Shown here: in pieces, positions 1,235 to 21,051 of the stretch
Position numbering within the stretch: position 1 is the stretch's first letter
How the letters are laid out: each line of letters begins with the position of its first letter
Virus record (IMG/VR): IMGVR_UViG_3300009702_001182
Span: 1-29,528 of that record
Reading direction: 5' to 3' (one strand)
DNA length: 29,528 bases
From: a virus
The notes under the pieces: generated by a model
Told to the model about the DNA's origin: nothing
What the model saw: the letters and a program-made list of their open reading frames with translations, nothing else
Database searches by the model: none
Program-made: the position numbers and the translations under genes

Positions 1235-1539
1235 TAGCCTCTCCTTTTAATACTAAATAAAATTAACTAAATATTTAAAAATCTTCTTAAAATTATTATT
1301 CTGTACTGTATTCTACTAGTGTAGAAAGAGTGCTAAGTAGGATCCCCCAACTATTATAAAAATAACTTATAAAGTTTTACTTAAATAATCAATAATATTT
1401 TTATTAAATTTTCCCTTGGACACTTGGACACCTGGACACATCCATCCCCATTTTTCAACCACAATTAAATTTCCCAACATTTTCCGTCCAACCGTCCAAT
1501 TACTCTATTTCACCAAATGACTACTAATGACTTTTTTTT
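1235..1539. other. Intergenic spacer between host gene and element replicase
   Basis: About 300 bases lie between two minus-strand genes. The part next to the SBBP gene is plain AT-rich sequence that must hold its promoter, but I could not pick one. The part next to the primase holds the TTGGAC-type repeat block described separately. I found no ORF and no convincing intrinsic terminator for the primase gene. If the element has a left attachment site it should be here, but I saw no repeat of the right-hand tRNA. Confidence 0.5.
1416..1499. repeat. Iteron-like repeat block, candidate replication origin
   Basis: Three tandem 8-mers occur at 1416-1439 (TTGGACAC, TTGGACAC, CTGGACAC). After an AT-rich stretch of about 44 bases, two tandem 8-mers in the opposite orientation occur at 1484-1499 (CCGTCCAA twice). 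The shared core is TTGGAC/GTCCAA. The block lies directly beyond the 3' end of the replicase gene. Iteron arrays flanking an AT-rich segment beside a rep/primase gene are known from replication origins of SaPI-type satellites and plasmids. The assignment as an origin is inference. It could instead be an integrase arm-site array. Confidence 0.5.
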
Positions 1540-3834
1540 TTACGCAGCCTTACTCTTCTCCTTAAAACTAATCGTCCTAACCGCACCCGATTTCGCTTCC
1601 TCAACTGTATTACCCTCAATTCTAGCCCAAGTTTTCAGCCAACGTGTAAACTTACCTTGAGTAAGCTTATCATAATCCTCATACTCTTCCTTGAACTTTT
1701 TATAGAGTTCTTTCTTATCATAATTTGTATCAAGAGTTAGATCATCAGAAAATTCGGCAAATTCAGCACACGTTTCATCTATAAGCTTTTTAGCCTCTAT
1801 GTTCACAAAATCATATTCAACCAAACCATTCCTCAAATAGAACTGTAAACATTCCAGCATAAAATTGTCAAAATAATTCCACTCATCAACATCCCAACCC
1901 TGAAAAAACAACTTACCAAAATCATCAATTGGTCTATGATTCTTATTATAATAATCAGAAAACTCAATTATAAATTGTCTATCCAAAGTCGAATCATCAA
2001 CACCTTTGACAGAAAAATTTGTAGAGATAGCAAGCTTAGGGGATTCGTTAAAAGGAATAAAAATCTCATCCTTATTCTTCCGTTCAATCACAATTCCATC
2101 GGTAATTATTGCAAACAATCTTTCAAAAGGAAATTTTTCCCTAATATCTTCTAATGCTAAAATATCAGTATCAACTTTCACTCTTTGGAATGCAAAGTTC
2201 TTTGAAGGATTAAAATTTCTTCCATCCTCAATTACAATATTCCGTATATGTCCTATTGCTTTAATTACCAGACCTTTACCACTTCTTCCAAATGCACCTT
2301 CACTTAATTTCTCATCAATAAATACAATTGCTTTTGCTACAGTTGGATTTTTATACTGATGTAATAAATAACCAATACTACTCTTTAAAGCTTCGTACCG
2401 TTTAATATCCTTACTGCAAATGTTAAAAAGAAAATCTTCAAAATCGGTTCTGTTTTCACTAGTTTCAAATTTCCTATCTAATATTTGTTGCTTCCAAATT
2501 GCATTCTCAAGCTGCGTATAATCCATTCTAGCTGTTTTGCTTTTAGTTATTTGTACAAATCCATTTTTATAATATAAGTAAGCGGTTTCAGCGGTATCCT
2601 TATTAAAATTAATAGCACGAGTAATTAAAAATTCAAAGAATTGTTGAGTAAATAATTGTGCATTAGATTTTATCAAAGCGTCAATAATTTCATTTCTGCT
2701 TACATCTCCAAATTCTTCAACGTTAGTCTTATATAAGTAATTCATTACATATTCTTTAACATGCACAGAATCAATTTCCTCAACAATGTTATTTTCAATC
2801 CTTACAAAAACATAATTATTCTCAAGCTTGTATTTACAAAAACCTTCACCTTCTAGGAATTTCTTAAATCTTGGTCTTGAAATACTAATCCTACCGCTAT
2901 TTTCTCTAAACCAAAATCTAATTATTGGCTTCTTCCAGCCATATAATTCAGCAATATGATAAATTGAACCAATGGTAACACTGCCGTCATAATCAGCGGT
3001 TAGCGATTCAAACTTTTTCTTAATATTATCTTCAGTGTCTTTGTAATTAGGGTTTTTCAGACTAAAATCAACAAACAACTTTTCACCTTTTTCACCGAGT
3101 GGAACAAGAGCAAAACCAATTCTATACCATTCCTCATAACTTCCTTCCGGTAAATTTTCACTCAAATAATCAAGAGCAGCTTCCAATCTCTCCTTATCAT
3201 AATATATTTTATCTCCAGTATTGTTGTTTATGCTGTGCGTAGTCGAAGCATCAATCACACAAAACTTTTTCAGCACCTCTAACAATTTTCCAATCCAAAC
3301 ATTATTCGGTTCATCTTCCGGCAACCCACATTCATTTAAGTTGACAAACTGATATTCATTTCCACTCGGATGAAGGGAAGGGGGGAGTACAGTTTGACAA
3401 TTCTTCCATCTTAACTCAATATGGTCGCATAGATTATTCTCTGTAAGATTAAATTTATAGTATGATTTTTCTCCACCAATTCCATCTAAATAATTATCCT
3501 CATCACTGCAATAAAACCAAATATGATAACCTTTACCGCTTCCGCTTTTTACAATCCATATATAATCTTTCCCGTACCCCAATGCTTCAGCAAATCTGTA
3601 AACAATACTTACATCTTCAACAACATCAAAATCCAAACACCTTAAATCGTTTATTCCTGATATAGCGCCGATACCATTTGTTTTATGATTCCAATTCAAG
3701 CTATCAATATTTTCATTTGTCATTTCATCAATCTGATATTTCTTCCATTCAAATTTTGGAGCTTTATCTTCAAGAGGAATAACATTAAATCCAAATACAT
3801 TATTATAATCTTTAGCAGCATTTCTTAAATTCAT
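1540..3834 (-). CDS. Prim-Pol primase / SF3-type helicase replicase
   Basis: This is a 764-aa fused replication protein. Residues 1-165 form a bifunctional primase-polymerase (Prim-Pol, AEP) domain with the metal-binding LDFD (D68, D70), KGYHIW (H104) and PPSLHPSG (151-158). Residues of roughly 205-300 resemble a PriCT-2 linker (EEWYRIGFAL...GSIYHIAELYGW). The C-terminal half is a phage/plasmid SF3-like helicase, with Walker A GAFGRSGKG at about residue 515, Walker B ILALEDI and the sensor-like PKLAISTNF. This primase-helicase architecture initiates and drives replication of phages, plasmids and satellites. It starts two bases after the integrase stop (TAAAAATG), so the two genes are probably co-transcribed and translationally coupled. 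The candidate origin lies just past its 3' end. The domain calls are solid; the link to that origin is inferred. Confidence 0.9.
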   Translation of the reverse strand: MNLRNAAKDYNNVFGFNVIPLEDKAPKFEWKKYQIDEMTNENIDSLNWNHKTNGIGAISGINDLRCLDFDVVEDVSIVYRFAEALGYGKDYIWIVKSGSGKGYHIWFYCSDEDNYLDGIGGEKSYYKFNLTENNLCDHIELRWKNCQTVLPPSLHPSGNEYQFVNLNECGLPEDEPNNVWIGKLLEVLKKFCVIDASTTHSINNNTGDKIYYDKERLEAALDYLSENLPEGSYEEWYRIGFALVPLGEKGEKLFVDFSLKNPNYKDTEDNIKKKFESLTADYDGSVTIGSIYHIAELYGWKKPIIRFWFRENSGRISISRPRFKKFLEGEGFCKYKLENNYVFVRIENNIVEEIDSVHVKEYVMNYLYKTNVEEFGDVSRNEIIDALIKSNAQLFTQQFFEFLITRAINFNKDTAETAYLYYKNGFVQITKSKTARMDYTQLENAIWKQQILDRKFETSENRTDFEDFLFNICSKDIKRYEALKSSIGYLLHQYKNPTVAKAIVFIDEKLSEGAFGRSGKGLVIKAIGHIRNIVIEDGRNFNPSKNFAFQRVKVDTDILALEDIREKFPFERLFAIITDGIVIERKNKDEIFIPFNESPKLAISTNFSVKGVDDSTLDRQFIIEFSDYYNKNHRPIDDFGKLFFQGWDVDEWNYFDNFMLECLQFYLRNGLVEYDFVNIEAKKLIDETCAEFAEFSDDLTLDTNYDKKELYKKFKEEYEDYDKLTQGKFTRWLKTWARIEGNTVEEAKSGAVRTISFKEKSKAA

Positions 3835-3836
3835 TT

Positions 3837-4892
3837 TTAACCTTTGTATTTTAACAATTTCAAATTACTTTTTTCTGTTTCTTTTCTCATATCTCTTATC
3901 TCACTTCTTGTATCTAACTTTTTAACTGCTTCCCTCAAAGCACCCACATCCAAATGTGCATAAATCTCAGTCGTCGAAATCGAGGAATGTCCGAGCAATT
4001 CCTTAATCACATACAGAGAAACCCCTTGCTGCGCAAGGTTAGAAGCGAATGAATGCCTAAGTGTATGGAAGTGTATTGCTTCATCAAGACCAGCATCTCT
4101 ACAAGCTCTCTTAAACTTTTTCGAGAAATAATCTCCTGTATAAGCCATTCCATTATCCTTAGCAAACACAAACGAATTCTTCTCCCCATTTTTAAGGGGG
4201 AGAATCAAAGAGGGGGTTGTTTTTCCATTCTTAATTCTTTGCAGTATTCTCTCCACTTCCTCACCAAATGGCACATACCTCTGATTCTTTCCCTTAGTTA
4301 CAAAATCCTCATCACCCACAATTATAACCTTCTTTTCAAAATCAATATTCTTCCATTTCAAATTGACAATCTCATTCAATCTCATACCTGTATTAAATGC
4401 AAACACAACAACATCTTTCACAACATCCGAATCTATCTGTTTAACTATCTTTTTGACTTCAATTTCATTTAGGAAAAGGGGATTAAGCTTATTTTTCTTC
4501 GGTAGTTTAACTTTTACAAAGTGATTAACAGAAATGTAATTCCAATCAACCGCTTTATTAAAAGCAGCTTTCAAAGTTCTGTAATAAACCCTAAAACCCT
4601 TTGGAATCTTCTTCTGTAGGTCTGTCATAAACATTTCCACATCTTTGTAGCTAATGGAACGGATTGGCTTTTGAAGTCCGGAATAATCAGTCAAATGATT
4701 CAAGGCGATTACAACAGAACTATAATAATTTTTACTTCTGTTACTCTTAATCAAATCCTTATACTCATCACAGAACACTCTAAGAGTCACAACCTCTTTA
4801 GCAGTTGTATCAGTGCCAATTGAAAATAACATCCGTAACTTTTCAATATCCTGTACCGATAGCTTGTTTAATATTTCGCTTAATCCTTCCAA
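3837..4892 (-). CDS. Tyrosine recombinase / integrase
   Basis: A 351-aa tyrosine recombinase that would integrate and excise the element. A SAM-like N-terminal core-binding domain spans roughly residues 35-130. The catalytic domain has R171 (NTGMRLNEI), K200, H276 and R279 (HTLRH), H302 (GHSS) and the nucleophile Y311 (EIYAHL), so the full catalytic set is present. The listed start is a TTG at 4892, because a stop codon lies 12 bases upstream in frame and no ATG occurs between them. M21 (ATG at 4832) is an alternative that would still keep the domain. Two oddities stand out. Residues 224-237 (TTPSLILPLKNG) are encoded by a palindromic repeat absent from the usual fold. The tail after residue 327 (DTRSEIRDMRKE) is encoded by purine-rich quasi-repeat DNA like that seen between genes. 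Confidence 0.93.
   Translation of the reverse strand: MEGLSEILNKLSVQDIEKLRMLFSIGTDTTAKEVVTLRVFCDEYKDLIKSNRSKNYYSSVVIALNHLTDYSGLQKPIRSISYKDVEMFMTDLQKKIPKGFRVYYRTLKAAFNKAVDWNYISVNHFVKVKLPKKNKLNPLFLNEIEVKKIVKQIDSDVVKDVVVFAFNTGMRLNEIVNLKWKNIDFEKKVIIVGDEDFVTKGKNQRYVPFGEEVERILQRIKNGKTTPSLILPLKNGEKNSFVFAKDNGMAYTGDYFSKKFKRACRDAGLDEAIHFHTLRHSFASNLAQQGVSLYVIKELLGHSSISTTEIYAHLDVGALREAVKKLDTRSEIRDMRKETEKSNLKLLKYKG
4182..4221 (-). repeat. Palindromic repeat inserted in frame in the integrase gene
   Basis: CTCCCC (4182-4187) and GGGGAG (4197-4202) pair around an 8-9 base loop, followed by a further AGGGGG tract. The same sequence pattern occurs inside the terminase gene at 23582-23622 in the same orientation relative to the coding strand. 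The two copies share most bases over about 38 positions with one indel. Here it adds about 14 residues between two beta strands of the catalytic domain, without a stop codon. Confidence 0.75.
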
Positions 4893-5327: not shown

Positions 5328-5594
5328 TTAGTTATCTCCGTTCGTTTTAGTCTTACTTGAGATAATTTGTTTTGAGTAAACCCAATCATCAAGTTCACTT
5401 TTCATAAAAAAAATCATCTTGCCTGTTGGTTTGTAGTGGGGTATCTGATGTTTTGAAGTCAACAGATAAAGATAGCTTTTGGATAAGCGTAAGTACTTTG
5501 CAGCTTCAGCTAGAGTTAATGGTCTGTTTAACTGAGTTACTAAGTTTTGGAACTCGTCTAATTTTGTTGTGAACTTTTTAATTTTCATGTTCAT
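5328..5594 (-). CDS. AlpA/excisionase-type helix-turn-helix protein
   Basis: An 88-aa protein. Residues 24-72 form an HTH_17/excisionase-like winged helix (LTLAEAAKYLRLSKSYLYLL, then a wing IPHYKPTGKMIFFMKSELDDWV). Proteins of this size and fold beside a tyrosine integrase act as recombination directionality factors (Xis) or as AlpA-like regulators that switch on excision of prophages, ICEs and satellites. It lies upstream of the integrase in the same orientation. Its upstream region carries an 8-bp inverted repeat that could be its own operator. The family call is firm. Whether it is Xis, a regulator or both is inferred. Confidence 0.85.
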   Translation of the reverse strand: MNMKIKKFTTKLDEFQNLVTQLNRPLTLAEAAKYLRLSKSYLYLLTSKHQIPHYKPTGKMIFFMKSELDDWVYSKQIISSKTKTNGDN

Positions 5595-5716: not shown

Positions 5717-6517
5717 TTATAAATTAATACTGTCTAATATTTCTCTAACAAGATTGCCAGTATTTGTTGTGTTCTCAGTATATCTTCTTTTTTGCGCTAA
5801 TCCCTTAAATGATTCACCTTTCTTGTTTACAAAGTGGTCGCTCATAATTTTATCCTTTCTCGCATTATCAATAGCTCCTCTCTTTGCTAATTCATCAACA
5901 AAAACAGAAAAGGAATTATCACTGTCTTGCCAACAAAAAGCTTCAAATGGTTTCTCTATAAAAGTTAGTTTATTTCGGCGTTCATCTAAGTAATGAATTA
6001 GTATTTCATCTTCAGTATATGCGGGTAAAATTTCATTTTCAGTTAACACTTTATATAGGTTTAATAATTTTTCCTTTCCAACTTTCCAAACTATCTTATT
6101 GTTAGTATTTCTTTTCGAAATTATATTTTTTTCACTTTGTCCATTTGCATATTTTACTTTTAATTTTAGGTCTAATGAATCACTAAAGAATTTTTTCAAT
6201 TCTTCTGCTCTTGCAGTATAATCGTAGTATGGTTCGGTTAATTTATTTAGTGCTAAGGTAAGTATATCATTCTCTAATTCTTGTCTAAAACTTCTGCTAT
6301 TATCTAAAGCGGTTTTTATCTCCTTATTAATATTTGAATTATTTGTAGTAATTATAACTGGTTCTAAACTTAGTTTTCTAAATTCTTTTTCAATATCGTA
6401 GGCGGTATTTCTGCATCTAAGTATTTCCTGAGAAATATAGTTTATTTTGTCCTCATCATTCGGATAATTGTTTACTGCTTTCTCAAGATCATTATAGTCA
6501 AATTCTTCGTAAGCCAT
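5717..6517 (-). CDS. Hypothetical mobile-element protein (266 aa)
   Basis: I do not recognise a named family. The protein is charged and mostly helical. Residues of about 25-110 look like long helices (ISQEILRCRNTAYDIEKEFRKLSLE...). A C-terminal segment (FEAFCWQDSDNSFSVFVDELAKRGAIDNARKDKIMSDHF, about 195-233) is compact. Its CWQ and FVDELAKRG features are reminiscent of C-terminal modules in accessory proteins of Bacteroidota mobile elements, but this is only an impression. It starts at ATG 6517, three bases after the TAA of the 48-aa ORF (TAATAATGG), so the two are translationally coupled. No signal peptide or membrane segment is visible. Its position in the int/xis cluster suggests a regulatory or replication-accessory role. 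Confidence 0.65.
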   Translation of the reverse strand: MAYEEFDYNDLEKAVNNYPNDEDKINYISQEILRCRNTAYDIEKEFRKLSLEPVIITTNNSNINKEIKTALDNSRSFRQELENDILTLALNKLTEPYYDYTARAEELKKFFSDSLDLKLKVKYANGQSEKNIISKRNTNNKIVWKVGKEKLLNLYKVLTENEILPAYTEDEILIHYLDERRNKLTFIEKPFEAFCWQDSDNSFSVFVDELAKRGAIDNARKDKIMSDHFVNKKGESFKGLAQKRRYTENTTNTGNLVREILDSINL

Positions 6518-6790: not shown

Positions 6791-6798
6791 GTTTTTGA

Positions 6799-6871
6799 GC
6801 CAGTGACGAGATTTAAACTCGCAATTAATGCCTGGGAAGGACAATCGTCTTATCAATTAGACTACACTGGC
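6799..6871 (-). tRNA. tRNA-Gly (anticodon most likely UCC), divergent
   Basis: A full cloverleaf can be drawn in 73 nt. The acceptor stem GCCAGTG/CACTGGC is perfect (7 bp). The D-stem GTCT/AGAC has D-loop AATTGATA. The anticodon arm TTGTC-CTTCCCA-GGCAT has four pairs. The T-arm is GCGAG-TTTAAAT-CTCGT. The loop position gives anticodon TCC, with an unusual C at position 37. A shifted reading would give CCC, but its stem pairs badly. Position 19 is A instead of G and position 56 is T instead of C, so the conserved G19-C56 tertiary pair is replaced by A19-U56. No CCA is encoded. It sits inside the element's minus-strand early region, so it is cargo of the element, either functional or a tolerated variant. 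Confidence 0.75.
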
Positions 6872-8113: not shown

Positions 8114-11100
8114 ATGATAAACAATACCTCGTCACTCCTAAAAGACAATCACGATAGAGGCTCAGTCGGAGATTTTCTAAACACCAACATTTCGTCTAAC
8201 TCAGAACTCTCAATTGTTTCGGCTTACTTTACAATTTATGCTTTTAATAAATTGAAAAATAAACTCAATGATATTGAATCCTTAAATTTTTTATTTGGTG
8301 AACCCACTTTTATTAAATCAGTTAATCCTGATAGCGGTAAAAAAAAGGATTTTAAAATAGAAGATGATAAACTTGTCATCCCACTTGAGAGCAGACTTTC
8401 ACAAAAGGCTGTTGCAAAAGAATGTGCGGATTGGATAAGAGACAAGGTAAATATTAAATCAATGGTAAAACCCAATTTCCTACACGGAAAAATGTATCAC
8501 ATTAGAAAAAGTAATGGTGTTGAAAAAGCTATTCTCGGAAGTTCTAATTTTACAGTAAATGGTTTAGGTTTAGGTGGAAGCCCTAATATTGAATTAAACA
8601 TCGAAGTTGATAGCGACCGTGATAGAAATGATTTATTGAATTGGTTTAATGAATTATGGAATGACAGTAGTGGTCTTGTTGAAGATGTTAAAGAAGAAGT
8701 TCTAAAATATATCGAACAATTATACTCCGAAAACGACCCTGAGTTCATTTATTTCAAAACTCTTTACCATACTTTTGAAAAATTTCTTAAAGGTCAAACA
8801 AAAGGCGGTTTGCTTGAAGAAAATATCGGTTTCTTTGAATCCCAAGTTTGGAATATGTTATATGAATTTCAAAAGGATGGTGTAAAAGGCGCTATAAACA
8901 AAATTCTAAATCATAATGGCTGTATTATTGCCGATAGCGTTGGTCTTGGTAAAACCTTTGAAGCCCTTGCTGTAATTAAGTATTTCGAATTACTAAATAA
9001 AAATGTCCTCGTTCTTGTACCTAAAAAACTTAGAGAGAATTGGACTATTTATAGATTGAATTCGGAATTAAATCCTTTTGTTAAAGATAGATTCAGATAT
9101 GATGTACTTAATCACACAGATTTAAGTCGTGAATCCGGTAAATCCGGCGATATAGACCTTGCGGCAATAAATTGGGGTAATTATGATCTTGTTGTAATTG
9201 ATGAATCCCATAACTTTAGAAATAATGCTAAAGGTAAAAGGGATGAAGACGGAAATATAATTAGGAAAAGTAGATATGAAAGATTGCTCGATGAGATAAT
9301 TAAATCCGGTGTAAAGACAAAAGTACTATTGCTCTCCGCAACGCCCGTTAACAATAATCTTAGAGACCTGCGTAATCAAATTCATATTATTACCGGCGGT
9401 AATGATGCCGCTCTTTTAGACAAGACCGGCATTAAAAATATTGCCCAAACTCTTAAAAATGCGCAGAATAACTTTAGTCGCTGGGCAGATCCCAAAAAAA
9501 ACGCACAACGATCCGTCAAAGATCTTTTGGAAAGATTGGATTCCTCTTTCTTCAAATTGCTTGATGAACTTACAATTGCTCGTTCACGTAAACATATTAT
9601 CAATTATTATGATACAAAAAATATTGGCAAGTTCCCTGAAAGACTTTCTGTTATTTCGAAAGCTCCTAATATCGACATAGAAAATAAATTCCCATCTTAT
9701 GATAAATTAAACGAAGAGATTATTAAATATCGGCTTTCTCTTTTTAATCCGTCTGCTTATGTTAAAGATGAATTCAAGGATTATTACGAAGAAAAATCTA
9801 AATCCGAAGGAACTGTCTTTACTCAAACAACACGTGAGTATTTTCTTATTGGAATGATGAAAGTCAATTTCTTAAAAAGAATAGAAAGTTCTATCAAATC
9901 TTTTGAGATTTCTATGGATAGAACAATCAATAAGATTGATTCTTTAATTCAAAGGATAACAGATTATAAGGAAAATCATTTAGGCGAATTAACTCTTGAA
10001 CCGGATTTGTTTACTATTGAAGAGGAGGAAGACGAGGAATTAGCTGCCGCTAACGACAATTGGCAAGTTGGTAAAAAACTAAAATTTGAACTTGCACATC
10101 TTGATATTGCAAAATGGATTCATGACCTTAATGAAGATAAAGACCAATTAACAATGTTATATAACACTGCAGCTAGTGTTACAGTTGAGCGTGATGAAAA
10201 ATTAAAAGTTCTTAAAGATACAATTATTAACAAAATAAATAATCCTCTTAACAACAATAATAAAAAAGTAATCGTATTTACTGCATTTGCTGATACTGCA
10301 TATTATTTATACGATTCAATCAAAGATTGGTGTGTTAACGAATTAAATCTTAATATTGCCGTTGTTGCCGGCGGTAACAAAGAAAACCAAACTACTTTCA
10401 AACCAAAAGGTTTCAAACATAATTCAAATTTCAATAATATTCTTACTAACTTTTCACCAATTTCAAAGAATAGATCCAAAATAAAGTCTATGCCTCAAGA
10501 ATGTGAGATTGATATTCTTATCGCTACAGATTGTATTTCCGAAGGTCAAAATCTTCAAGATTGTGACTTCCTAATTAATTACGATATTCACTGGAATCCC
10601 GTTCGCATAATACAACGGTTTGGTCGTATTGACCGATTGGGAAGCATAAATGATAAAGTTCAACTCGTTAATTTTTGGCCTACAGACGACCTAAATAATT
10701 ATATCAATCTCAAAGAACGTGTTGAAGCAAGAATGGCTTTGGTTGATATTACTGCTACCGGCGAAGAAAACATTCTTGACCCCGAGCAGTTAAAAGATCT
10801 TATCGAAGATGATATGAAATATAGAAACAAGCAGCTTAAACGCTTAAAAAAAGAAGTGCTTGATCTCGAGGAACTTGACGATAACATTTCTCTTAGTGAA
10901 TTTACTCTTGATGATTTCCGAGTTGAACTTTTAAATTATATCGAAGAAAACAAAAAGAAACTTGAAGATGCACCCTTGGGTTTATATGCCGTAGTTCCGG
11001 CTCCTAATAGTGAAAAGGAAGAACTACTCACTTTAATTGATAGTCCGGCAAATCAAATTATTAGACCCGGTGTTATCTATTGCTTACGTCAAAAAGGTAA

Positions 11101-11470
11101 TACCGATGGCAACGAAAAAGTTAATCCTCTGCAGCCATATTTTTTAGTTTATATCCGTGATGACGGAACAGTCCGTTTTAATTACACTCACGTAAAGCAA
11201 ATACTTGATATTTTTAGATTATTAGCACAAGGGAAAAAACAACCTTACGAAGAACTTTGTGATTTGTTTAACAAAGAAACAAATCAAGGGTTCGATATGG
11301 GTAAATATAATTCGCTGCTTCAAAAGGCAATTCAAGAAATAGCTGCCGTTTTCGGCAAAAAAGCTATTAATAAACTTAAGTCCAGTAGAGATGGAATTTT
11401 AATTCCCAAAAATAAACAAGCGGATAAAGCAGATAACTTTGAATTAATAACCTGGCTGATTATTAAATAA
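8114..11470 (+). CDS. PLD-nuclease / SNF2-type helicase defence protein
   Basis: An 1118-aa cytoplasmic fusion. Residues 1-195 form a phospholipase-D-like nuclease domain with H124-x-K126 (FLHGKMY) and GSSN (142-145). A superfamily 2, SNF2-like helicase follows, with Walker A DSVGLGKT (274-281), DESH (363-366), SATPVNNNL at about 407 and, in the second RecA lobe, ATDCISEGQNLQ and QRFGRIDRLG at about 805-845. An acidic insert (EEEEDEEL) lies near residue 640. Fusions of this kind are found in restriction and phage-defence loci, where the helicase translocates on unmethylated DNA and the PLD domain may cut it. It is first in an operon with KilA-N, methyltransferase and ATPase genes, which supports a restriction role. 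The relation to a named system such as DISARM is open. Confidence 0.88.
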   Translation: MINNTSSLLKDNHDRGSVGDFLNTNISSNSELSIVSAYFTIYAFNKLKNKLNDIESLNFLFGEPTFIKSVNPDSGKKKDFKIEDDKLVIPLESRLSQKAVAKECADWIRDKVNIKSMVKPNFLHGKMYHIRKSNGVEKAILGSSNFTVNGLGLGGSPNIELNIEVDSDRDRNDLLNWFNELWNDSSGLVEDVKEEVLKYIEQLYSENDPEFIYFKTLYHTFEKFLKGQTKGGLLEENIGFFESQVWNMLYEFQKDGVKGAINKILNHNGCIIADSVGLGKTFEALAVIKYFELLNKNVLVLVPKKLRENWTIYRLNSELNPFVKDRFRYDVLNHTDLSRESGKSGDIDLAAINWGNYDLVVIDESHNFRNNAKGKRDEDGNIIRKSRYERLLDEIIKSGVKTKVLLLSATPVNNNLRDLRNQIHIITGGNDAALLDKTGIKNIAQTLKNAQNNFSRWADPKKNAQRSVKDLLERLDSSFFKLLDELTIARSRKHIINYYDTKNIGKFPERLSVISKAPNIDIENKFPSYDKLNEEIIKYRLSLFNPSAYVKDEFKDYYEEKSKSEGTVFTQTTREYFLIGMMKVNFLKRIESSIKSFEISMDRTINKIDSLIQRITDYKENHLGELTLEPDLFTIEEEEDEELAAANDNWQVGKKLKFELAHLDIAKWIHDLNEDKDQLTMLYNTAASVTVERDEKLKVLKDTIINKINNPLNNNNKKVIVFTAFADTAYYLYDSIKDWCVNELNLNIAVVAGGNKENQTTFKPKGFKHNSNFNNILTNFSPISKNRSKIKSMPQECEIDILIATDCISEGQNLQDCDFLINYDIHWNPVRIIQRFGRIDRLGSINDKVQLVNFWPTDDLNNYINLKERVEARMALVDITATGEENILDPEQLKDLIEDDMKYRNKQLKRLKKEVLDLEELDDNISLSEFTLDDFRVELLNYIEENKKKLEDAPLGLYAVVPAPNSEKEELLTLIDSPANQIIRPGVIYCLRQKGNTDGNEKVNPLQPYFLVYIRDDGTVRFNYTHVKQILDIFRLLAQGKKQPYEELCDLFNKETNQGFDMGKYNSLLQKAIQEIAAVFGKKAINKLKSSRDGILIPKNKQADKADNFELITWLIIK

Positions 11471-11552
11471 TATAATTACAAAATTAGTGTTAGAGTTTGA
11501 TTATTCTAAATTTATTAAACATTGTTATTAAAATTGAACTTTAGGTTAAGTT

Positions 11553-12386
11553 ATGGGTAAAAAAAACAAGCTAATAGTTGTAAAGGGTACAAATATATCT
11601 ATATCTGTTATTAAAGATACGGATTACATCAGTTTGACTGATATTGCCCGCTACAAAGATTCCAAAAGAACCGATTATGTTATTCAAAACTGGATGAGAA
11701 ATAGAAATACTATAGAATTCCTCGGTATTTGGGAATCCCTCTATAATTCAGATTTTAATCCCATCGAATTCGAGGGGTTTAGAAATAAAGCCGGATTAAA
11801 CAGCTTTGTTCTAACACCTAAACAATGGATTGAAAAAACAAATGCCAAAGGATTAATTTCAAAAGCGGGAAGATATGGGGGAACATACGCTTTTAAAGAT
11901 ATTGCTTTTGAATTCGCTTCATGGGTTTCTGTAGAATTTAAGCTCTATCTAATTAAAGAATTTCAGAGACTTAAAGAAGAAGAAAATGATAGACTTAAAC
12001 TTGAATGGAATCTCCAACGGACTCTTGCTAAAATAAATTATAAAGTCCATACCGACGCTATTAAGGATAAACTCATTCCGCCCAAGCTTACTAAAAAACA
12101 GATTAGCTTTGTTTATGCCGAAGAAGCCGACTTACTTAATATGGCTCTTTTCGGGAAAACTGCTGAACAATGGAGAGTAGAAAATCCTAACTTAAGTGGA
12201 AATATCCGAGATTATGCTTCGCTCGAACAGTTGGTAGTTCTTTCCAATCTCGAAAGTATTAATTCATTACTTATTCGGCAAAATATTACTCAACCTGAAA
12301 GATTACAACAATTAAACCAAATTGCAATAGCTCAAATGAAATCGCTGCTGCAAAATAAAAACTTAAATAAACTTAAAAAATTATGA
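11553..12386 (+). CDS. KilA-N domain protein
   Basis: A 277-aa protein. Residues of about 10-145 are a KilA-N domain (DYISLTDIARYKDSKRTDYVI, later GRYGGTYAFKDIAFEFASWVS and FKLYLIKEFQRLK). The C-terminal half is helical (LTKKQISFVYAEEADLLNMALFGKTAEQWR). KilA-N domains bind DNA and are typical of phage regulators and antirepressors. The gene sits between the helicase and the methyltransferase and overlaps the methyltransferase start by ATGA, so it is expressed with them. A regulatory or DNA-recognition role in the defence operon is inferred. It could also be a passenger common near mobile elements. Confidence 0.85.
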   Translation: MGKKNKLIVVKGTNISISVIKDTDYISLTDIARYKDSKRTDYVIQNWMRNRNTIEFLGIWESLYNSDFNPIEFEGFRNKAGLNSFVLTPKQWIEKTNAKGLISKAGRYGGTYAFKDIAFEFASWVSVEFKLYLIKEFQRLKEEENDRLKLEWNLQRTLAKINYKVHTDAIKDKLIPPKLTKKQISFVYAEEADLLNMALFGKTAEQWRVENPNLSGNIRDYASLEQLVVLSNLESINSLLIRQNITQPERLQQLNQIAIAQMKSLLQNKNLNKLKKL

Positions 12387-15300
12387 ACGATATAAAGTTA
12401 TCTATTAAAAATGCTATTGCCGGTTTCAAGGCCAATGAACTTTTCGAAAATTCAATTTCCCTTTTTAATACTCTTGGCTATAACACCGCTCGTCAAAACA
12501 GATTGGATAATAATAGTTATAGTTATTTTAAAAATGCTTTTATTGACGCTGATGATAACTTCAACGAAGAAAAAGCTCTTACAAATGATTGGATAAAAAT
12601 AGAACTCCTTTTCCAATTAACTAACGAAGAAGTTACCGGCTTAACCAATATGTTCTCATCCGGCAAAGTTGATAACACAATAATTGAATCGTACCTCTTT
12701 TTTGCAGTTGAACTTAAAGGAACAAATTACTCGCGTACTAAACTCTCTGCTATTACCAGAGAAATAAATAAATTATTCTCTATGCCTGTAATGCTTCTCT
12801 TTTTTTATGATGAGAAACTTACTCTTTCCGTTATAAACAGACGTTTGAACAAACGTGATTCATCAAAAGATGTGCTTGAAAAAGTAACGCTTATTAAAGA
12901 TATTCGCATAACAAATCCGCACCGGGCACATATTGAAATTTTATATGATTTATCTTTCCCAATACTTACCGATACGTTCAAAGTAACCAACTTTGTTGAA
13001 CTGCACAGAGCTTGGGAGAAAATTCTTGATACAAAAGAGCTTAACAAAAAATTCTTCGGCGAACTTTCCAACTGGTATTTCTGGGCTATTAACGAAGTGG
13101 AATTTCCCGATGATGCTGAAAACGATAGAAACAAACGAAACCCAATTTCCGTTATCCGCTTAATTACACGTTTAATGTTTGTTTGGTTTATTAAGGAAAA
13201 AAGTTTGGTGCCTGAGCAGATTTTTGATAAAAAATATCTCGATACATTACTTAATTATAACGACGTAACCGGCAGCGCTTATTACAAAGCAATTCTGCAA
13301 AATTTATTTTTTGCTACGCTTAATACCGATATGAACAGAGATAAAACCGGCAGCCGTAAGTTTGTTAACGGACAATATCTTGTTCACAACCGTTATCGTT
13401 ACGGAAATCTTTTTAATGATAAAACCGGAGCGTTAAAACTTTTTGAAAATATTCCTTTCCTTAACGGCGGACTTTTTGAATGCCTTGATAGAAAAGATGA
13501 AAACGATAACGTAATTCGTATTGACTGCTTTTCCGAAAATCCTAAAAACCAAAAAAAACTGAAAGTGCCCGATTACCTTTTCTTTGGCGAAGAACAAATT
13601 ATTGATTTAAGCGATGCTTACGGCAATAAGAAAAAAAGCAAAGAAAAAGTAAGACCGATAATCGATATTCTTAATTCGTATAAATTTACAATTGCCGAAA
13701 ACACTCCGATTGAAGAAGAAGTTGCACTCGATCCCGAACTTCTCGGTAAGGTTTTTGAAAATCTTTTGGCAAGTTACAATCCCGAAACAAAAACTACCGC
13801 ACGCAAACAAACTGGCTCTTTTTATACGCCTCGCGAAATTGTTAATTATATGGTTGATGAATCTCTCATCGCATATTTTATTACCAAGTTATTGCCCGAT
13901 AGTGATAACACAAATGAAAAAGAGAAGGAAAAGATTGAAGCTAAACTAAGGCAGCTTTTTGAATACAACGAACAACCGCATCAGTTTGATAATAGCGCGG
14001 TTGATATTTTAATAAATGCAATTGATGAAATTAAAATTCTCGATCCCGCAGCCGGCTCCGGCGCTTTTCCGATGGGCATTCTGCATCGTTTGGTTTTTTT
14101 GCTGCATAAACTTGACCCGCATAACGAAAAATGGAAACAGAAACAGATTGATAAAATTAGCGAAATTGAAGACCCGACTGTAAGAGAACAACTTTTAACA
14201 GATGTGGAAGAATCTTTTACAAATAACGAACTTGATTACGGACGTAAACTTTACCTGATTGAAAATTGTATTTACGGCATTGATATACAACCCGTTGCAG
14301 TGCAGATTGCAAAACTTCGTTTCTTTATTTCTCTTGTTGCGGACCAAAAAGTAAACCACGAAAAGAAAAACTTCGGTATCCGTCCGCTGCCTAACTTGGA
14401 AACCAAATTTGTTGCCGCTAATACTTTAATTGGTCTTGAAAAAGAAGAGGATAACCTTTTTACAAACCCTAACATTGAGGATATTAAAAAACAATTAAAA
14501 AATGTTAGGCACCGCTATTTTACAGCACGTACACATAAAACAAAGGAGAAATACCGGAAAAAAGATAAAGAGCTAAGACAAAAGTTATCCGAGCTTTTAA
14601 CCAAAGAACATTATTTGCAGCCCGAAGATGCTAAAATGCTTGCAAAGTGGGACCCTTACGATCAAAATGCTTCTTCACCTTTCTTTGACCCTGAATGGAT
14701 GTTTGGGATTACTAATGGTTTTGATGTTGTTATTGGGAATCCGCCTTATGCATCTGCTGTAACTATGGCACGTTCTCAAATAATTAAAACTATTTATAAA
14801 AAATTGTATCCTCTCGCAACAGGTTCTTATGATATATATATCCTGTTTCTTTATAAAACAATAGAATTACTTAATAATAATGGAATTTACTCATGGATTA
14901 TTCCAAATAAGTTTTTAATCGCTGATTACGCTGACAAAACTAAATTATTTTTAATAAAAAATGGTCTTAGCCTTGCTCTTGATGTATCTAGTTTTAATGT
15001 TTTTGAAAATACAAGTGTATACCCTATTGTAATAGTTGGTAATAAATCAAATTTTTCAATTGAATTTAAAGAATATTTATTGGATAATTATACTGACTTA
15101 AAAAAAAGAATATTTAAAGAACCCCTTAAGTTAAGTGAACATAAACAAATTAAGGATTTTAATATAAAAATAGGTTCAGGGACTACTGGGTTTGAAGCAA
15201 AAAAAGTTAAAAATCTATTATCAAATACCTATAAAGCAAATACTATTCCCTTTACAGTAAGCGGAGGTATAAATAGATATTCGATCTCAAATGAAAATAT

Positions 15301-15985
15301 TAGATTCATGGGGTTAAAATTAAATAAAGCTTTCGTAAGAAATTCAAATACTATTGCTAAATCAAAATGGATATTTTGGAATTCCCCTAAAATAATTGTT
15401 GCTGGAATGACTAGAGAAATTGAATCGGTCTATGTTCAAAGTCCATATGGTTTAGGTGTAGGGGTATATGCTATTTATAATTTTGGTGGATTTGATCCTT
15501 TTTTCTTAACTGGTATATTGAATAGTGTTTATCTTACATTTTATATCAAAAACAAATTTAAAGATAAACATTTGGCTGGTGGATATTTGGCAATAAACAA
15601 ATCAACTCTTGAAAAACTCCCACTTGAAAAATCACAAAATGAACAAGCGTATATAATATTATCAAAGATTCTTCACAATATTAGTCTAGAAACAAATATT
15701 ATTGCCAATAATATTAAAAACGTTCTTGATGCAATGGTATTTGAACTCTATTTCCCCGCCCACATGAAAGAACGCAAAATAGACATACTAAAATATGTAG
15801 AAGAAGACATAAACCAAGTAATGCAAGGCAGAGAATTTGAACACTTTACCGACACCGAAAAAGAAGAAGTAATAGAAAAGCTGCACAAAAAATGGACAGC
15901 TCCCGATAGCATAGTCCGCAACCGCATAAAACAAATGCCAATAAAAAGCCCGGATATAATTAAACCTATTTTGGAAAGCAAATGA
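12383..15985 (+). CDS. Eco57I-type adenine-specific DNA methyltransferase
   Basis: A 1200-aa protein. The N-terminal roughly 440 residues are of unknown fold, with an ELKG motif near residue 115 that could be part of a degenerate nuclease-like core. The methyltransferase core starts at GKVFENLL...TGSFYTPREIVNYM (about 450-490), with SAM motif DPAAGSGAF (D554) and catalytic NPPY (786-789), i.e. N6-adenine methylation. The C-terminal roughly 400 residues should contain the target-recognition region. The gene overlaps both neighbours by ATGA (start with KilA-N, stop with the ATPase), so the four genes form one operon. Base composition drops to very AT-rich after about 14750 and rises again near 15730, as expected if the specificity region was exchanged. 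It presumably protects self DNA from the helicase-nuclease. Confidence 0.9.
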   Translation: MNDIKLSIKNAIAGFKANELFENSISLFNTLGYNTARQNRLDNNSYSYFKNAFIDADDNFNEEKALTNDWIKIELLFQLTNEEVTGLTNMFSSGKVDNTIIESYLFFAVELKGTNYSRTKLSAITREINKLFSMPVMLLFFYDEKLTLSVINRRLNKRDSSKDVLEKVTLIKDIRITNPHRAHIEILYDLSFPILTDTFKVTNFVELHRAWEKILDTKELNKKFFGELSNWYFWAINEVEFPDDAENDRNKRNPISVIRLITRLMFVWFIKEKSLVPEQIFDKKYLDTLLNYNDVTGSAYYKAILQNLFFATLNTDMNRDKTGSRKFVNGQYLVHNRYRYGNLFNDKTGALKLFENIPFLNGGLFECLDRKDENDNVIRIDCFSENPKNQKKLKVPDYLFFGEEQIIDLSDAYGNKKKSKEKVRPIIDILNSYKFTIAENTPIEEEVALDPELLGKVFENLLASYNPETKTTARKQTGSFYTPREIVNYMVDESLIAYFITKLLPDSDNTNEKEKEKIEAKLRQLFEYNEQPHQFDNSAVDILINAIDEIKILDPAAGSGAFPMGILHRLVFLLHKLDPHNEKWKQKQIDKISEIEDPTVREQLLTDVEESFTNNELDYGRKLYLIENCIYGIDIQPVAVQIAKLRFFISLVADQKVNHEKKNFGIRPLPNLETKFVAANTLIGLEKEEDNLFTNPNIEDIKKQLKNVRHRYFTARTHKTKEKYRKKDKELRQKLSELLTKEHYLQPEDAKMLAKWDPYDQNASSPFFDPEWMFGITNGFDVVIGNPPYASAVTMARSQIIKTIYKKLYPLATGSYDIYILFLYKTIELLNNNGIYSWIIPNKFLIADYADKTKLFLIKNGLSLALDVSSFNVFENTSVYPIVIVGNKSNFSIEFKEYLLDNYTDLKKRIFKEPLKLSEHKQIKDFNIKIGSGTTGFEAKKVKNLLSNTYKANTIPFTVSGGINRYSISNENIRFMGLKLNKAFVRNSNTIAKSKWIFWNSPKIIVAGMTREIESVYVQSPYGLGVGVYAIYNFGGFDPFFLTGILNSVYLTFYIKNKFKDKHLAGGYLAINKSTLEKLPLEKSQNEQAYIILSKILHNISLETNIIANNIKNVLDAMVFELYFPAHMKERKIDILKYVEEDINQVMQGREFEHFTDTEKEEVIEKLHKKWTAPDSIVRNRIKQMPIKSPDIIKPILESK

Positions 15986-17706
15986 AGCGCATACAAGAAA
16001 TTAAGATAAGTAATTTCAAAGCATTCAGAGATGAGCAAGTTTTTAATATCAGAGGCAAAAATATGCTTGTTTTTGGGAATAACGGTTCCGGCAAATCTTC
16101 TCTATTCTGGGCGCTATATACATTATTGCAAAGCAGTTTAAAAGACAATGCTGAGATTCAAAAATATTTTAAATTATTTGATGAGGGAAATAGCACAACT
16201 CACCAAAGTCTGCTAAATACTTTTGATAATTACAATGCTCCTTCCTACATTCAACTTACTACAATAGACGATAATAAAAAATTAGAAACATTTCGTATTT
16301 CTCACGATAATATTAATACCAATCTCAAATCCAATACTATAATAAGCGAATTAAACGAAGCCAGTGATTTTATAAATTACAAATTGCTCCATAATTTTTA
16401 TAGAGGTTCGCATAAGGTTGAAGTAAATTTATGGCCAGTTTTTGAACGTGATATTTTCCCGTTTTTAACAGATAATTTCGGCAATCCGCTGTTAAGTTCT
16501 ATAATTGAAAAAACAAGTGATGTTAATAGGACTTCTAACGGTAAAATTGTTTCACGTAATCAAAAAGATAACAATATAGCAAATCTTAATTCTCTTAATA
16601 CAGAAATTGAAGTATTATTAAATCAAATAGAAAACAATGCGAATGATTTTATTAAAAAACATTTTTTTAATAATAAAGACGTGATTAAGATAAATCTACA
16701 ATTCAGCAAAAAATTTACATTTGATAAGGTAAAGAAAAAGCTTTGGGACGATGATAATACTGCACTTCGCCAAAGTGAACTACAAATACGTTTAATTGTT
16801 GGTGTTTACGATGAGAAAACCAATTCATGGAAAGTTTTACATCGTGTTCAATCATTTCTAAATGAGGCACAACTTACAAGGATAGCAATTGGTATTAGAA
16901 TAGGTGCATTGAGAACCAGAGTTCAAACCACAGATTTTAAAGTCTTAGTACTTGACGATATGCTTATAAGCCTGGATATGTCAAACAGACTTGAAGTCAT
17001 AAAGATGATTCTTAACCTTGACAACAATCCAGACCTAAAGTTCTTTGATGATTTTCAAAAAATAATTCTCACTCACGATAAAGGTTTCTATGAGTTAGTA
17101 AAAAGGCATACCTCACCTCATCAGTGGGAATATTTCACTTTTCATAGCGATGAATCTAACAACGATCCACCTAAAATTAAAATTGATAGAACAAGGCTCG
17201 AAAAAGCTCAGTCATTTTTAGCTGATGGCGAATATGATGCAGCCGGAAACGAAATAAGAAAAGAGACAGAAGAACTTCTTCACAAATATTTAAAAGGATT
17301 AACAGATGCTGCCAATGATGGTAAGTTTATCCCTCTTAACGACCAATTAAATTCAGCATTAAAAAAAATCACCGCAACGGAACGTAGAGATTTTAATAAA
17401 CTTTTTGCAAATAAAAGTATTTCCAAAAACCTAGTCGAGAAAATAAAAACAGATTATAGTAGCAATTCCAGTTTATCCCCAGCTGAAAAAGGTAAGTTGA
17501 CTAGTTTGAAGAATAGATTATTCGATTATTTAATTAAACAATATGAAATACAAGTTGACAAAGAAAAGATTTTAGACGAAACAAAGGATATTTTACAGAG
17601 AATCATGAACCCAGCTTCTCATGCATCTTTAACGTCTCTATATGGAACAGAATTACAGCAAGCAATAGATTTGGTTAAAGAATTGAAAATAATATTACAA
17701 CGATAG
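15982..17706 (+). CDS. ABC-type (RecF/SMC-like) ATPase
   Basis: A 574-aa ATPase. Walker A is GNNGSGKSS (32-40), the signature-like LNEAQLTRIAIGIRIG is at about 293-308, Walker B VLVLDDMLISLD at about 321-332, and an H-loop (ILTHDKGFYEL) follows. The insert between the two halves is short, so there is no long SMC coiled coil. The C-terminal domain (about 400-574) is helical and ends in RIMNPASHASL, an R-x6-H arrangement typical of HEPN-like tails on such ATPases. GGAAAG precedes the start, which overlaps the methyltransferase stop. ATPases of this kind act as sensors or motors in defence systems. It is the last intact member of the first cargo operon. Confidence 0.87.
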   Translation: MKRIQEIKISNFKAFRDEQVFNIRGKNMLVFGNNGSGKSSLFWALYTLLQSSLKDNAEIQKYFKLFDEGNSTTHQSLLNTFDNYNAPSYIQLTTIDDNKKLETFRISHDNINTNLKSNTIISELNEASDFINYKLLHNFYRGSHKVEVNLWPVFERDIFPFLTDNFGNPLLSSIIEKTSDVNRTSNGKIVSRNQKDNNIANLNSLNTEIEVLLNQIENNANDFIKKHFFNNKDVIKINLQFSKKFTFDKVKKKLWDDDNTALRQSELQIRLIVGVYDEKTNSWKVLHRVQSFLNEAQLTRIAIGIRIGALRTRVQTTDFKVLVLDDMLISLDMSNRLEVIKMILNLDNNPDLKFFDDFQKIILTHDKGFYELVKRHTSPHQWEYFTFHSDESNNDPPKIKIDRTRLEKAQSFLADGEYDAAGNEIRKETEELLHKYLKGLTDAANDGKFIPLNDQLNSALKKITATERRDFNKLFANKSISKNLVEKIKTDYSSNSSLSPAEKGKLTSLKNRLFDYLIKQYEIQVDKEKILDETKDILQRIMNPASHASLTSLYGTELQQAIDLVKELKIILQR

Positions 17707-18522: not shown

Positions 18523-20283
18523 TTGGTAATAATATGCAAACACAATTTACAAAAGTTGATTATACAGTATCCCTTACTCATTGAAAAAATTGAATTAGGC
18601 GAAATTGGTCTTCCTGATATTCAACGTCCATTTGTATGGAATTCATCAAAAGTTCGTGATTTATTTGATTCAATGTATAAAGGTTTTCCGGTTGGTTACT
18701 TATTATTTTGGGCGAGCAATAATGGTGTTCAGACACGCCAAATCGGAACTGATACTAAACAAGTTGCTTCTCGTCTGCTAATTGTTGACGGTCAACAAAG
18801 ATTAACATCTTTATATTCTATTATAAAAGGCAAATCAGTGCTAAATGATGAATATCAAGAGAAAAAAATTAAAATTGGTTTTCGCCCAAAAGATGCTACT
18901 TTTAAAGTTACAGATGCTTCTGTAATTCGCAATCCCGAATTTATTCCAGATATTTCGGTTGTGTGGTCAACATCAACCTCACATATAAGGTTTGTTAATA
19001 GTTTTGTTGCAAAACTTAAAGAAACTTCAGAGTTATCAAAAGAAGAAGAAGATGTTATTAGTCACAATATTGACAAATTATATGATCTCCACTATTATCC
19101 ATTTACTGCTTTAGAGCTCTCATCTGGTATTGACGAAGAACAAGTTGCAAATGTTTTTGTAAGGATTAACAGTCAAGGCATTAAACTTAATCAAGCCGAT
19201 TTTATACTTACTTTAATGTCAGTTTTTTGGGACGAAGGAAGAACACAACTTGAAAAATTCTCTCGTACATGTAAGTTACCATCAACATCAAATGCATCTC
19301 CATTTAATTACTTTATTGAACCTAGTCCTGATCAATTACTTCGAATTGCTATTGGCTTAGGTTTCCGCAGAGCAAGATTAAAATATGCTTATTCCATTCT
19401 GAGAGGGAAAGATCTTCAAACAGAAAAATTTTCAGAAGAAAAAAGAGAGGAGCAATTTGCAATATTAAAAGTAGCTCAAGATTATTCGTTAGATCTTGTA
19501 AACTGGCATGAATTTCTTAATTGCTTAAAAATTGCTGGGTTTAAAAGTTCTTCACAAATAAGCTCTAACGTTGGTTTATTGTATACTTATGTTTTTTATC
19601 TACTTGGTAAGCGTGATTTTCACATTGATCATTATGTTTTAAGAAAAATTATTGCCAAATGGTTTTTTATGCAATCCATCACACGTAGATATAGTGGTTC
19701 ACCTGAAACAGTTATGGAAGGCGATCTTACACGTTTTAGAGAGATAAGCACTTCTCAAGAGTTTATAACTATATTAGATAAACTGGTTGCAGACACTTTA
19801 ACCGATGATTTCTGGAATATAACTTTGGTTAATGATCTTTCCGTGTCGACCGCCACCTCCCCAGCAATTTTTTCCTATTATGCTTCTTTAATATTACTTG
19901 ATTCTAATGTTTTATTCTCACAATTAAAGGTTTCTGAGTTAATTGATCCATCGATAAGAAAAGTTAAATCAATTGAAAGACATCATTTATTCCCAAAAAA
20001 TTATCTTAAGTCATTAGAAATAACAGATATAAAAGAAGTAAACCAAATAGCCAACTTTGCTCTAGTTGAATGGCATGATAATATTGATATTTCCGATAAA
20101 TCTCCAACAGATTATTTACCTGAATATCTTGATAGATTGTCTCCTGAAGAAAAACAAAAAATGTACTATTGGCATGCACTTCCTGAAAAATGGGAAGAAA
20201 TGAAATATAAAGAATTCCTTGAAAACAGAAGAAAACTTATTGCAAATGTTATTCGTGCTGGTTTTAAAAAATTAGATTTATGA
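18523..20283 (+). CDS. DUF262/GmrSD-type nuclease protein, start frameshifted
   Basis: A 586-aa protein. The DUF262 domain shows IGLPDIQRPFVWN (28-40) and DGQQRLTSL (89-97). The C-terminal part contains ERHHLFPKNYL and later NQIANFALVEWHDN, the histidine/asparagine pattern of the DUF1524-type HNH nuclease. Single-chain GmrSD-like enzymes cut modified phage DNA in an NTP-dependent way. The listed start is a TTG, which gives a poor N-terminus. The natural start is more likely ATG 18534 (MQTQFTKVDYTVS), joined to LLIEKIELG by removing one C from the CCC at 18571-18573. So the gene has a one-base insertion at its front, or the base is an error. It is followed 55 bases later by the HEPN-motif gene. 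Confidence 0.85.
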   Translation: MVIICKHNLQKLIIQYPLLIEKIELGEIGLPDIQRPFVWNSSKVRDLFDSMYKGFPVGYLLFWASNNGVQTRQIGTDTKQVASRLLIVDGQQRLTSLYSIIKGKSVLNDEYQEKKIKIGFRPKDATFKVTDASVIRNPEFIPDISVVWSTSTSHIRFVNSFVAKLKETSELSKEEEDVISHNIDKLYDLHYYPFTALELSSGIDEEQVANVFVRINSQGIKLNQADFILTLMSVFWDEGRTQLEKFSRTCKLPSTSNASPFNYFIEPSPDQLLRIAIGLGFRRARLKYAYSILRGKDLQTEKFSEEKREEQFAILKVAQDYSLDLVNWHEFLNCLKIAGFKSSSQISSNVGLLYTYVFYLLGKRDFHIDHYVLRKIIAKWFFMQSITRRYSGSPETVMEGDLTRFREISTSQEFITILDKLVADTLTDDFWNITLVNDLSVSTATSPAIFSYYASLILLDSNVLFSQLKVSELIDPSIRKVKSIERHHLFPKNYLKSLEITDIKEVNQIANFALVEWHDNIDISDKSPTDYLPEYLDRLSPEEKQKMYYWHALPEKWEEMKYKEFLENRRKLIANVIRAGFKKLDL

Positions 20284-20337
20284 ATAACTGAATATTCGTT
20301 TCCCAATGTTATTTCAGATGTAAAAGGATAAATAAGT

Positions 20338-21051
20338 ATGAGCTTACTTTCAACTGAGTATAATTCTTACGGAATGCCTGAAAATATTGAAGATTTCTAT
20401 TATTCATTTAATCGTCTTCAAAGTCATATGTCCATTTCAGAATGGTCATTTGATACAACATTTGCTGTCCTGGATTCCAATCCTGATATGTTAAGTGAGT
20501 TAGGTTACTCTTCAGATGAATCTGGTTGGGATGCTTTCACATTTGATTTACGAGGATCACAAAAAGAAATTCTTTATGAACAAGGTATTATTTCTTTGCT
20601 TGCAATATTTGAAGGATTTATTAATGACACTTTAAAATTTATTTTTTACAAGGATACCAAACTTCAGTCAAAATTAAAGGTTAATATTGAATATGGCGAA
20701 CTTTCTTCAAAATATAACAAATTGCTCGAAATCATTATTGATGATAATTTAAATAAACTCTCAAACTGGCCTCAAAAAATAAAAATCTTCAGCAAAGCAC
20801 CAATTAGTATTAATTTAGAATCAAAAAAGGAAACAAAAATAATAAAAGAAGCTATTGCGTATAGAAATGCCCTTATTCACAATAAAGGGGAAATCGATTC
20901 TAGAGTTGTTACAGCTAACCCAAATTACGCAAACCTAGTTGATACCAGCATTAGGATTCCAATAGATAGAACATTTTATAAAAAAACCAGTAAAGCTGTT
21001 GAAAATTTAGTTCTGTTTATTGATAATAGAATTAAAGAAAAATATACTTAA
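20338..21051 (+). CDS. HEPN-motif protein (237 aa)
   Basis: A mostly helical protein. Near the C-terminus it carries R176-N-A-L-I-H181, the Rx4H motif of HEPN domains, preceded by an acidic/aromatic helix (EQGIISLLAIFEGFINDTL, 81-99) as in MAE_28990/RiboL-PSP-type HEPN proteins. HEPN domains are often RNases in toxin-antitoxin, abortive infection and CRISPR-linked systems. An AAAGGA ribosome site precedes ATG 20338. It follows the DUF262 gene closely and in the same direction, so the two may work as a pair. The HEPN call rests on the motif and helical context only. Whether it is an active RNase is unknown. Confidence 0.7.
   Translation: MSLLSTEYNSYGMPENIEDFYYSFNRLQSHMSISEWSFDTTFAVLDSNPDMLSELGYSSDESGWDAFTFDLRGSQKEILYEQGIISLLAIFEGFINDTLKFIFYKDTKLQSKLKVNIEYGELSSKYNKLLEIIIDDNLNKLSNWPQKIKIFSKAPISINLESKKETKIIKEAIAYRNALIHNKGEIDSRVVTANPNYANLVDTSIRIPIDRTFYKKTSKAVENLVLFIDNRIKEKYT

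Follow-up and report, generated by a model that had tools for sequence, protein, structure and literature searches.

The locus described here raises the question of why a compact set of short repeats, arranged in two orientations, lies directly behind the gene of a primase-helicase. The analysed stretch of DNA, in the following referred to as the window, is an entire IMG/VR virus record and comprises 29,528 bases. Read on the minus strand toward lower coordinates, one of its modules encodes a 266-residue protein with no assigned function (5717..6517), which had no match in Pfam, an excisionase-like HTH_17 protein (5328..5594; PF12728), a tyrosine integrase (3837..4892; PF00589), and a 764-residue primase-helicase (1540..3834), and ends with the repeat array. 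A host-like surface-protein gene follows beyond the array. The primase-helicase, which is the presumed initiator, comprises a Prim-Pol domain, PriCT-2 (Pfam), a D5-like helicase and, according to a structural model, a C-terminal winged helix. The same contig contains packaging and head genes, namely those for a terminase large subunit, a Mu-like portal and head proteins.

The array starts 40 bp past the stop codon of the primase gene, on its 3' side. Arm 2, which is nearest to this stop codon (1484..1499, minus strand), consists of two tandem iterons; each reads CCGTCCAA on the plus strand (1484-1491 and 1492-1499) and hence TTGGACGG on the minus strand. The distal arm 1 (1416..1439, plus strand) is inverted relative to the primase gene and contains three tandem iterons, TTGGACAC (1416-1423), TTGGACAC (1424-1431) and CTGGACAC (1432-1439). 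The period of all five units is strictly 8 bp and there are no gaps, so that the units, positions and phase given in a preliminary description were all confirmed from the sequence. The arms are separated by a spacer of 44 bp (1440..1483; 31.8% GC), which is the presumed melting site. It had been called AT-rich, which holds for its absolute composition but does not set it apart, because the spacer is as AT-rich (68% AT) as the rest of the contig (31.6% GC). The outer flanks of the array are more AT-rich than the spacer (25% GC), and the spacers of related loci contain 66-77% AT compared to averages of 65-67% for these loci. A transcription terminator was ruled out by inspection, as the loop would comprise about 48 nt and a T run is missing.

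Single TTGGACA words occur in the window at chance level (3 seen, 3.7 expected). What is exceptional is their clustering: five TGGAC/GTCCA words lie inside 90 bp and form three pairs with an 8-bp period. In 300 dinucleotide shuffles of the window, the largest cluster consisted of four words (1/300) and five were never reached; at most one pair with an 8-bp period was obtained (2/300) and never three. The earlier judgement that the array is unlikely by chance is therefore borne out, since none of the 300 shuffles equalled it.

In order to compare the array among relatives, whole genomes of the phylum, class and order were searched for homologues of the primase. A Flavobacteriaceae MAG was used as the centre of this search, and strong matches were found in one order of its phylum. 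Homologues whose 3' flank could be read numbered 36 (41-70% identical); together with the window these are 37 loci with 36 distinct flanks, many of which stem from one order and are not independent. GGAC pairs were scored if they were in tandem, had a period of 8 or 9, and were located between positions -60 and +420 relative to the primase stop. Such pairs were found in the primase 3' flank of 35 of the 37 loci, the window included; the two primase loci lacking the repeats are L335 (64% identity) and L434. Altogether, 68 pairs are located in the 3' flanks versus 3 in the remaining 380 kb of the loci. The pairs are confined to a single arm in 13 loci, and nearly all pair-bearing loci have a GGAC pair at the position that matches arm 2. 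Most relatives show the same order of HTH_17, integrase, primase and array: the integrase gene adjoins that of the primase there too, the HTH_17 gene lies upstream of the integrase gene in most of them, and the 266-residue protein belongs to the module in several. For the host-like gene at the left of the window, no homologue was found among the 19 longer relatives examined. This comparison had been named beforehand as the one that could refute a link between repeats and primase. Because the repeats occur in the flanks of the primase relatives and the host-like gene is not conserved, the link withstood it, the two loci named above being the exceptions. Phage proteins related to the helicase half (35-38%; L004-L083) were of no use for the comparison, as no clear arrays were seen behind their genes.

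The arrangement of the two arms is conserved as well. Read in the primase sense, 22 of the 37 loci (the window and 21 others) contain a GGAC pair with an inverted one after it. The starts of the two pairs are 52-54 bp apart in 17 loci, 60-61 bp in four (the window, L336, L417 and L443), and 89 bp in one. When a maximum-likelihood tree was computed for 27 primases, the loci with 53 bp grouped within one fully supported clade and those with 60 bp within the clade of the window; the arm distance follows the primase tree. The period, be it 8 or 9, is identical on both arms in all 22 loci, and it switches between these two values several times on the tree.

For the 764-residue protein, an AlphaFold2 model was built with phage relatives. 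The model is poor overall (pLDDT 54.5) and confident at the C terminus (pLDDT about 85), where it contains two helices (707-717 and 726-740) and two strands (742-749 and 752-759). These elements are predicted to form a winged helix (codons 700-764; 1543..1737, minus strand), which on the grounds of the model and of the covariation described below is the presumed iteron-binding domain. A Foldseek search identified the ASFV PrimPol and the SaPI5 primase-helicase (7OLA) as the best PDB matches; because the model is weak, these matches support the helicase class and not the details. Sequence searches of the PDB found nothing. The D5-like fold match and the modelled winged helix suggest that the initiator possesses both a helicase domain and a C-terminal DNA-binding domain.

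The turn of the predicted wing varies together with the iteron. This turn has the sequence SG in 34 loci and SD in L336, in its relative L443, and in the separate lineage L425; in the window, the glycine is Gly750 (codon 1585-1587, minus strand). The base preceding GGAC is a C in 9 of the 12 units of SD loci versus 1 of the 122 units of SG loci. Thus, the exchange of Gly for Asp in the wing accompanies the exchange of T for C in front of GGAC. The Fisher p value of this association is about 7e-11, although the units share ancestry and represent only two independent changes. In L443, an SD locus, only two of the four units fit the association.

A more extensive change is seen between pSR14 and pSR31, two plasmids of Salinibacter ruber (S. 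ruber). Both are circular and have the array in the same place, 3' of the gene for Rep, and their origins (L440:4755-5133 and L441:2399-2817) are colinear. The two Reps are 94% identical overall and 96-100% identical over residues 301-750; the identity drops sharply in the last 24 or so residues, which form the wing. At the same time every iteron is switched: the counts in pSR14 and pSR31 are 9:0 for GGTCCA and 0:13 for GTCACA, and the intervening sequence is recognisably the same. A search of viral contigs with the pSR14 Rep found nothing. The Gly/Asp covariation and the switch between the two plasmids, in agreement with the biochemistry of SCCmec Cch2, point to the C-terminal wing as the part that reads the iteron. 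The covariation also suggests that the array of the window is bound by the 764-residue protein. A broader proposal, to which we assign about even odds, is that a short wing at the extreme C terminus determines which origin a primase-helicase of this family recognises. A change in the wing (Gly750 to Asp, or about 20 residues in S. ruber) would then reprogramme all iterons at once and leave the rest of the initiator and the two-armed geometry with its fixed distance unchanged.

By comparison, the repeats belong to the 3' flank of the primase, are arranged in two convergent groups with a clade-fixed spacing, and co-vary with a residue of the wing. An iteron origin that is located beside the primase-helicase and read by it is thus strongly supported by comparison. 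We infer that the array is most probably (with a probability of about 0.87) the iteron replication origin of an integrative element that encodes its own initiator, the primase-helicase, because the array accompanies the primase rather than the host gene and does so in the published arrangement of SaPIs, PICIs and SCCmec. In the proposed mechanism, the C-terminal winged helix of each subunit would bind one GGAC iteron, so that each arm, with its two or three iterons, would seed one helicase ring. The two rings would face each other at a fixed distance across a spacer of 40-48 bp, melt it, load on opposite strands, and start two forks. Both forks would be primed by the N-terminal Prim-Pol domain, after the integrase has excised the element.

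Three other functions of the repeats were considered. They might be arm-type sites close to the end of the element that are bound by the tyrosine integrase or by its excisionase and function in excision, not in replication. The conserved integrase gene beside the primase gene and the location of the array at the presumed end of the module would fit this function, which is nevertheless improbable: arm-type sites are expected at both sides of an element whereas the GGAC pairs are concentrated behind the primase gene, the iteron covaries with the wing of the primase, and repeats of the same layout are located 3' of the related S. ruber Reps, where no integrase is annotated in the stretches read. 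The least probable of the three is transcriptional regulation by the primase or an HTH protein, for which the array would be an operator or copy-control site. Iterons of plasmids often double as elements of copy-number control, which makes such a function conceivable. However, the array does not lie at the beginning of the module but 3' of the primase gene, where SaPIs and PICIs have their origin (PMC6092414).

The arms are inverted repeats, and they could therefore also be the stem of a hairpin or cruciform, the iterons having no further role. The precedent is the pRN1 origin: the initiator ORF904 unites, like the protein of the window, a Prim-Pol domain, an SF3 helicase and a winged helix, and uses a stem-loop 3' of its gene (PMC4234260). 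This stem-loop comprises 100 nt and the origin is described as being without iterons, whereas the window has them. Moreover, in most loci the inter-core bases of one arm do not complement those of the other, which makes a functional hairpin less likely; in many loci the tandem pairs are restricted to a single arm, and core changes also occur in units of the same arm. A pRN1-type origin was rejected for the window because of its iterons and the missing complementarity, and a hairpin is accordingly rated as very unlikely.

The iteron origin proposed for the window resembles several characterised systems. In SaPIs and PICIs, the origin lies immediately 3' of the initiator gene and two sets of iterons flank a spacer; the function of their pri-rep-ori segment was tested on plasmids (PMC6092414). 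The representatives considered were the SaPI5 primase-helicase and the PICIs of E. coli. Common to these elements and the window are an initiator helicase with a primase, an origin 3' of its gene, and two sets of short iterons (PMC6092414), as well as the fold class of the SaPI5 protein. The window differs in its iteron, in its Bacteroidota hosts, in the lack of a recognisable sequence match to 7OLA, and in its defence cargo; the resemblance concerns the replication module rather than PICI regulators or phage dependence. The helicases of SaPIs and SCCmec bind repeats directly 3' of their genes by means of the C-terminal domain, and for SCCmec Cch2 the isolated C-terminal domain is sufficient for binding (PMC7581432). 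Cch2 shares with the window the location of the repeats directly 3' of a D5-type helicase gene (PMC7581432); it cooperates with a polymerase-type primase that is a separate protein, and its three AAGTG repeats form a single block of 23 bp, in contrast to the fused Prim-Pol and the two facing arms of the window. The alpha protein of phage P4 is likewise a fused primase-helicase with a winged-helix origin-binding domain (PMC10516667, PMC4234260), but its primase is of the Toprim type (PMC4234260) and that of the window is a Prim-Pol.

The layout had originally been compared to satellite origins beside a primase-helicase. The origin layout is supported by tandem pairs at the same place in 35 of 37 loci and by the likeness to SaPIs and PICIs; the satellite does not follow from it, as the contig contains terminase, portal and head genes and neither a helper phage nor att sites were found. 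Repeats that pair the left end with the tRNA-Gly, the tRNA-Met or other parts of the contig, which may be incomplete, did not exceed 13 bp. A terminase similar to that of the window is absent from 10 of 12 genomes that contain the primase module. In the other two it is located far from the primase, in G125 at a distance of more than one megabase.

The architecture as such was already known; the clade-specific geometry and the covariation of wing and iteron appear to be new. Self-loading primase-helicases drive many mobile elements and their choice of origin is known for only a few. The family studied here allows iteron, spacing and the likely reading residue to be traced through evolution, and pSR14 and pSR31 provide a naturally occurring pair in which the initiators diverge mainly in the wing and all iterons are switched. 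The specificity code is thus directly testable. For uncharted elements a simple rule for finding the origin results, namely to look for inverted repeats of 7-9 bp right behind the rep gene.

The motif also occurs beyond this family. Among viral contigs with three tandem TTGGACA, both orientations were present in 35 of 78, compared to 6 of 106, 1 of 15 and 1 of 36 for three permuted motifs. The reversed motif ACAGGTT, used as a control, gave 107 loci with three copies versus 78 for TTGGACA; most of these matches have a 9-bp period, which suggests protein-coding repeats, and for this reason the counts of both orientations were used instead. Where examined, TTGGACA arrays were often located directly 3' of primase-helicases of unrelated families (L084, L086, L108, L116, L125, L148, L162, L164, L166, L177, L183 and L196), which comprise DnaG/AAA_25, Toprim/AAA_25, Prim-Pol, NrS-1-like, VapE and DUF927/HTH_56. 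DUF5906 helicases are a further family with such arrays on the 3' side. TTGGACA may be a favoured iteron in general, and its recurrence is perhaps due to convergence. A universal use of TTGGAC as the iteron of such helicases was rejected, as Bacteroidota VapE loci and distant Prim-Pol relatives have other repeats at this place. A literature search for the motif retrieved unrelated papers only.

Defence-like genes are cargo in the window and in several relatives. Positions 8114-17706 of the window contain a candidate defence operon that encodes a PLD/SNF2 helicase (C3a139-like), a PDC-S22-like KilA-N protein, a type IIG-like methylase and an AAA ATPase; helicase and methylase genes resembling it are found near the module in L334 and L336. 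At 18523-21051, a DUF262-type protein matches the candidate system HEC-05, and the protein after it weakly matches an RT-associated HEPN family. A divergent tRNA-Gly (TCC) with an unusual T arm is located at 6797-6871 beside a terminator-like hairpin and looks element-borne rather than like an att site. A second tRNA, with a CAT anticodon, lies near the end of the contig (29409-29483) and is perhaps the integration target in the host; a search of the left end of the contig for a copy of its 3' end found none.

In many relatives (L334-L338, L343, L344 and L346), the array is followed by a small Cys-rich ORF (MHLTPVKAIKKHC.DCSGG...), which is missing in the window. L337, L338, L342 and L343 contain a second tyrosine integrase beyond the array, on the opposite strand and facing the primase, and in L416, L422 and L423 the sequence after the array seems similar to this region. 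Genome G701 has six primase matches in one assembly, which suggests the repeated acquisition of this element family.
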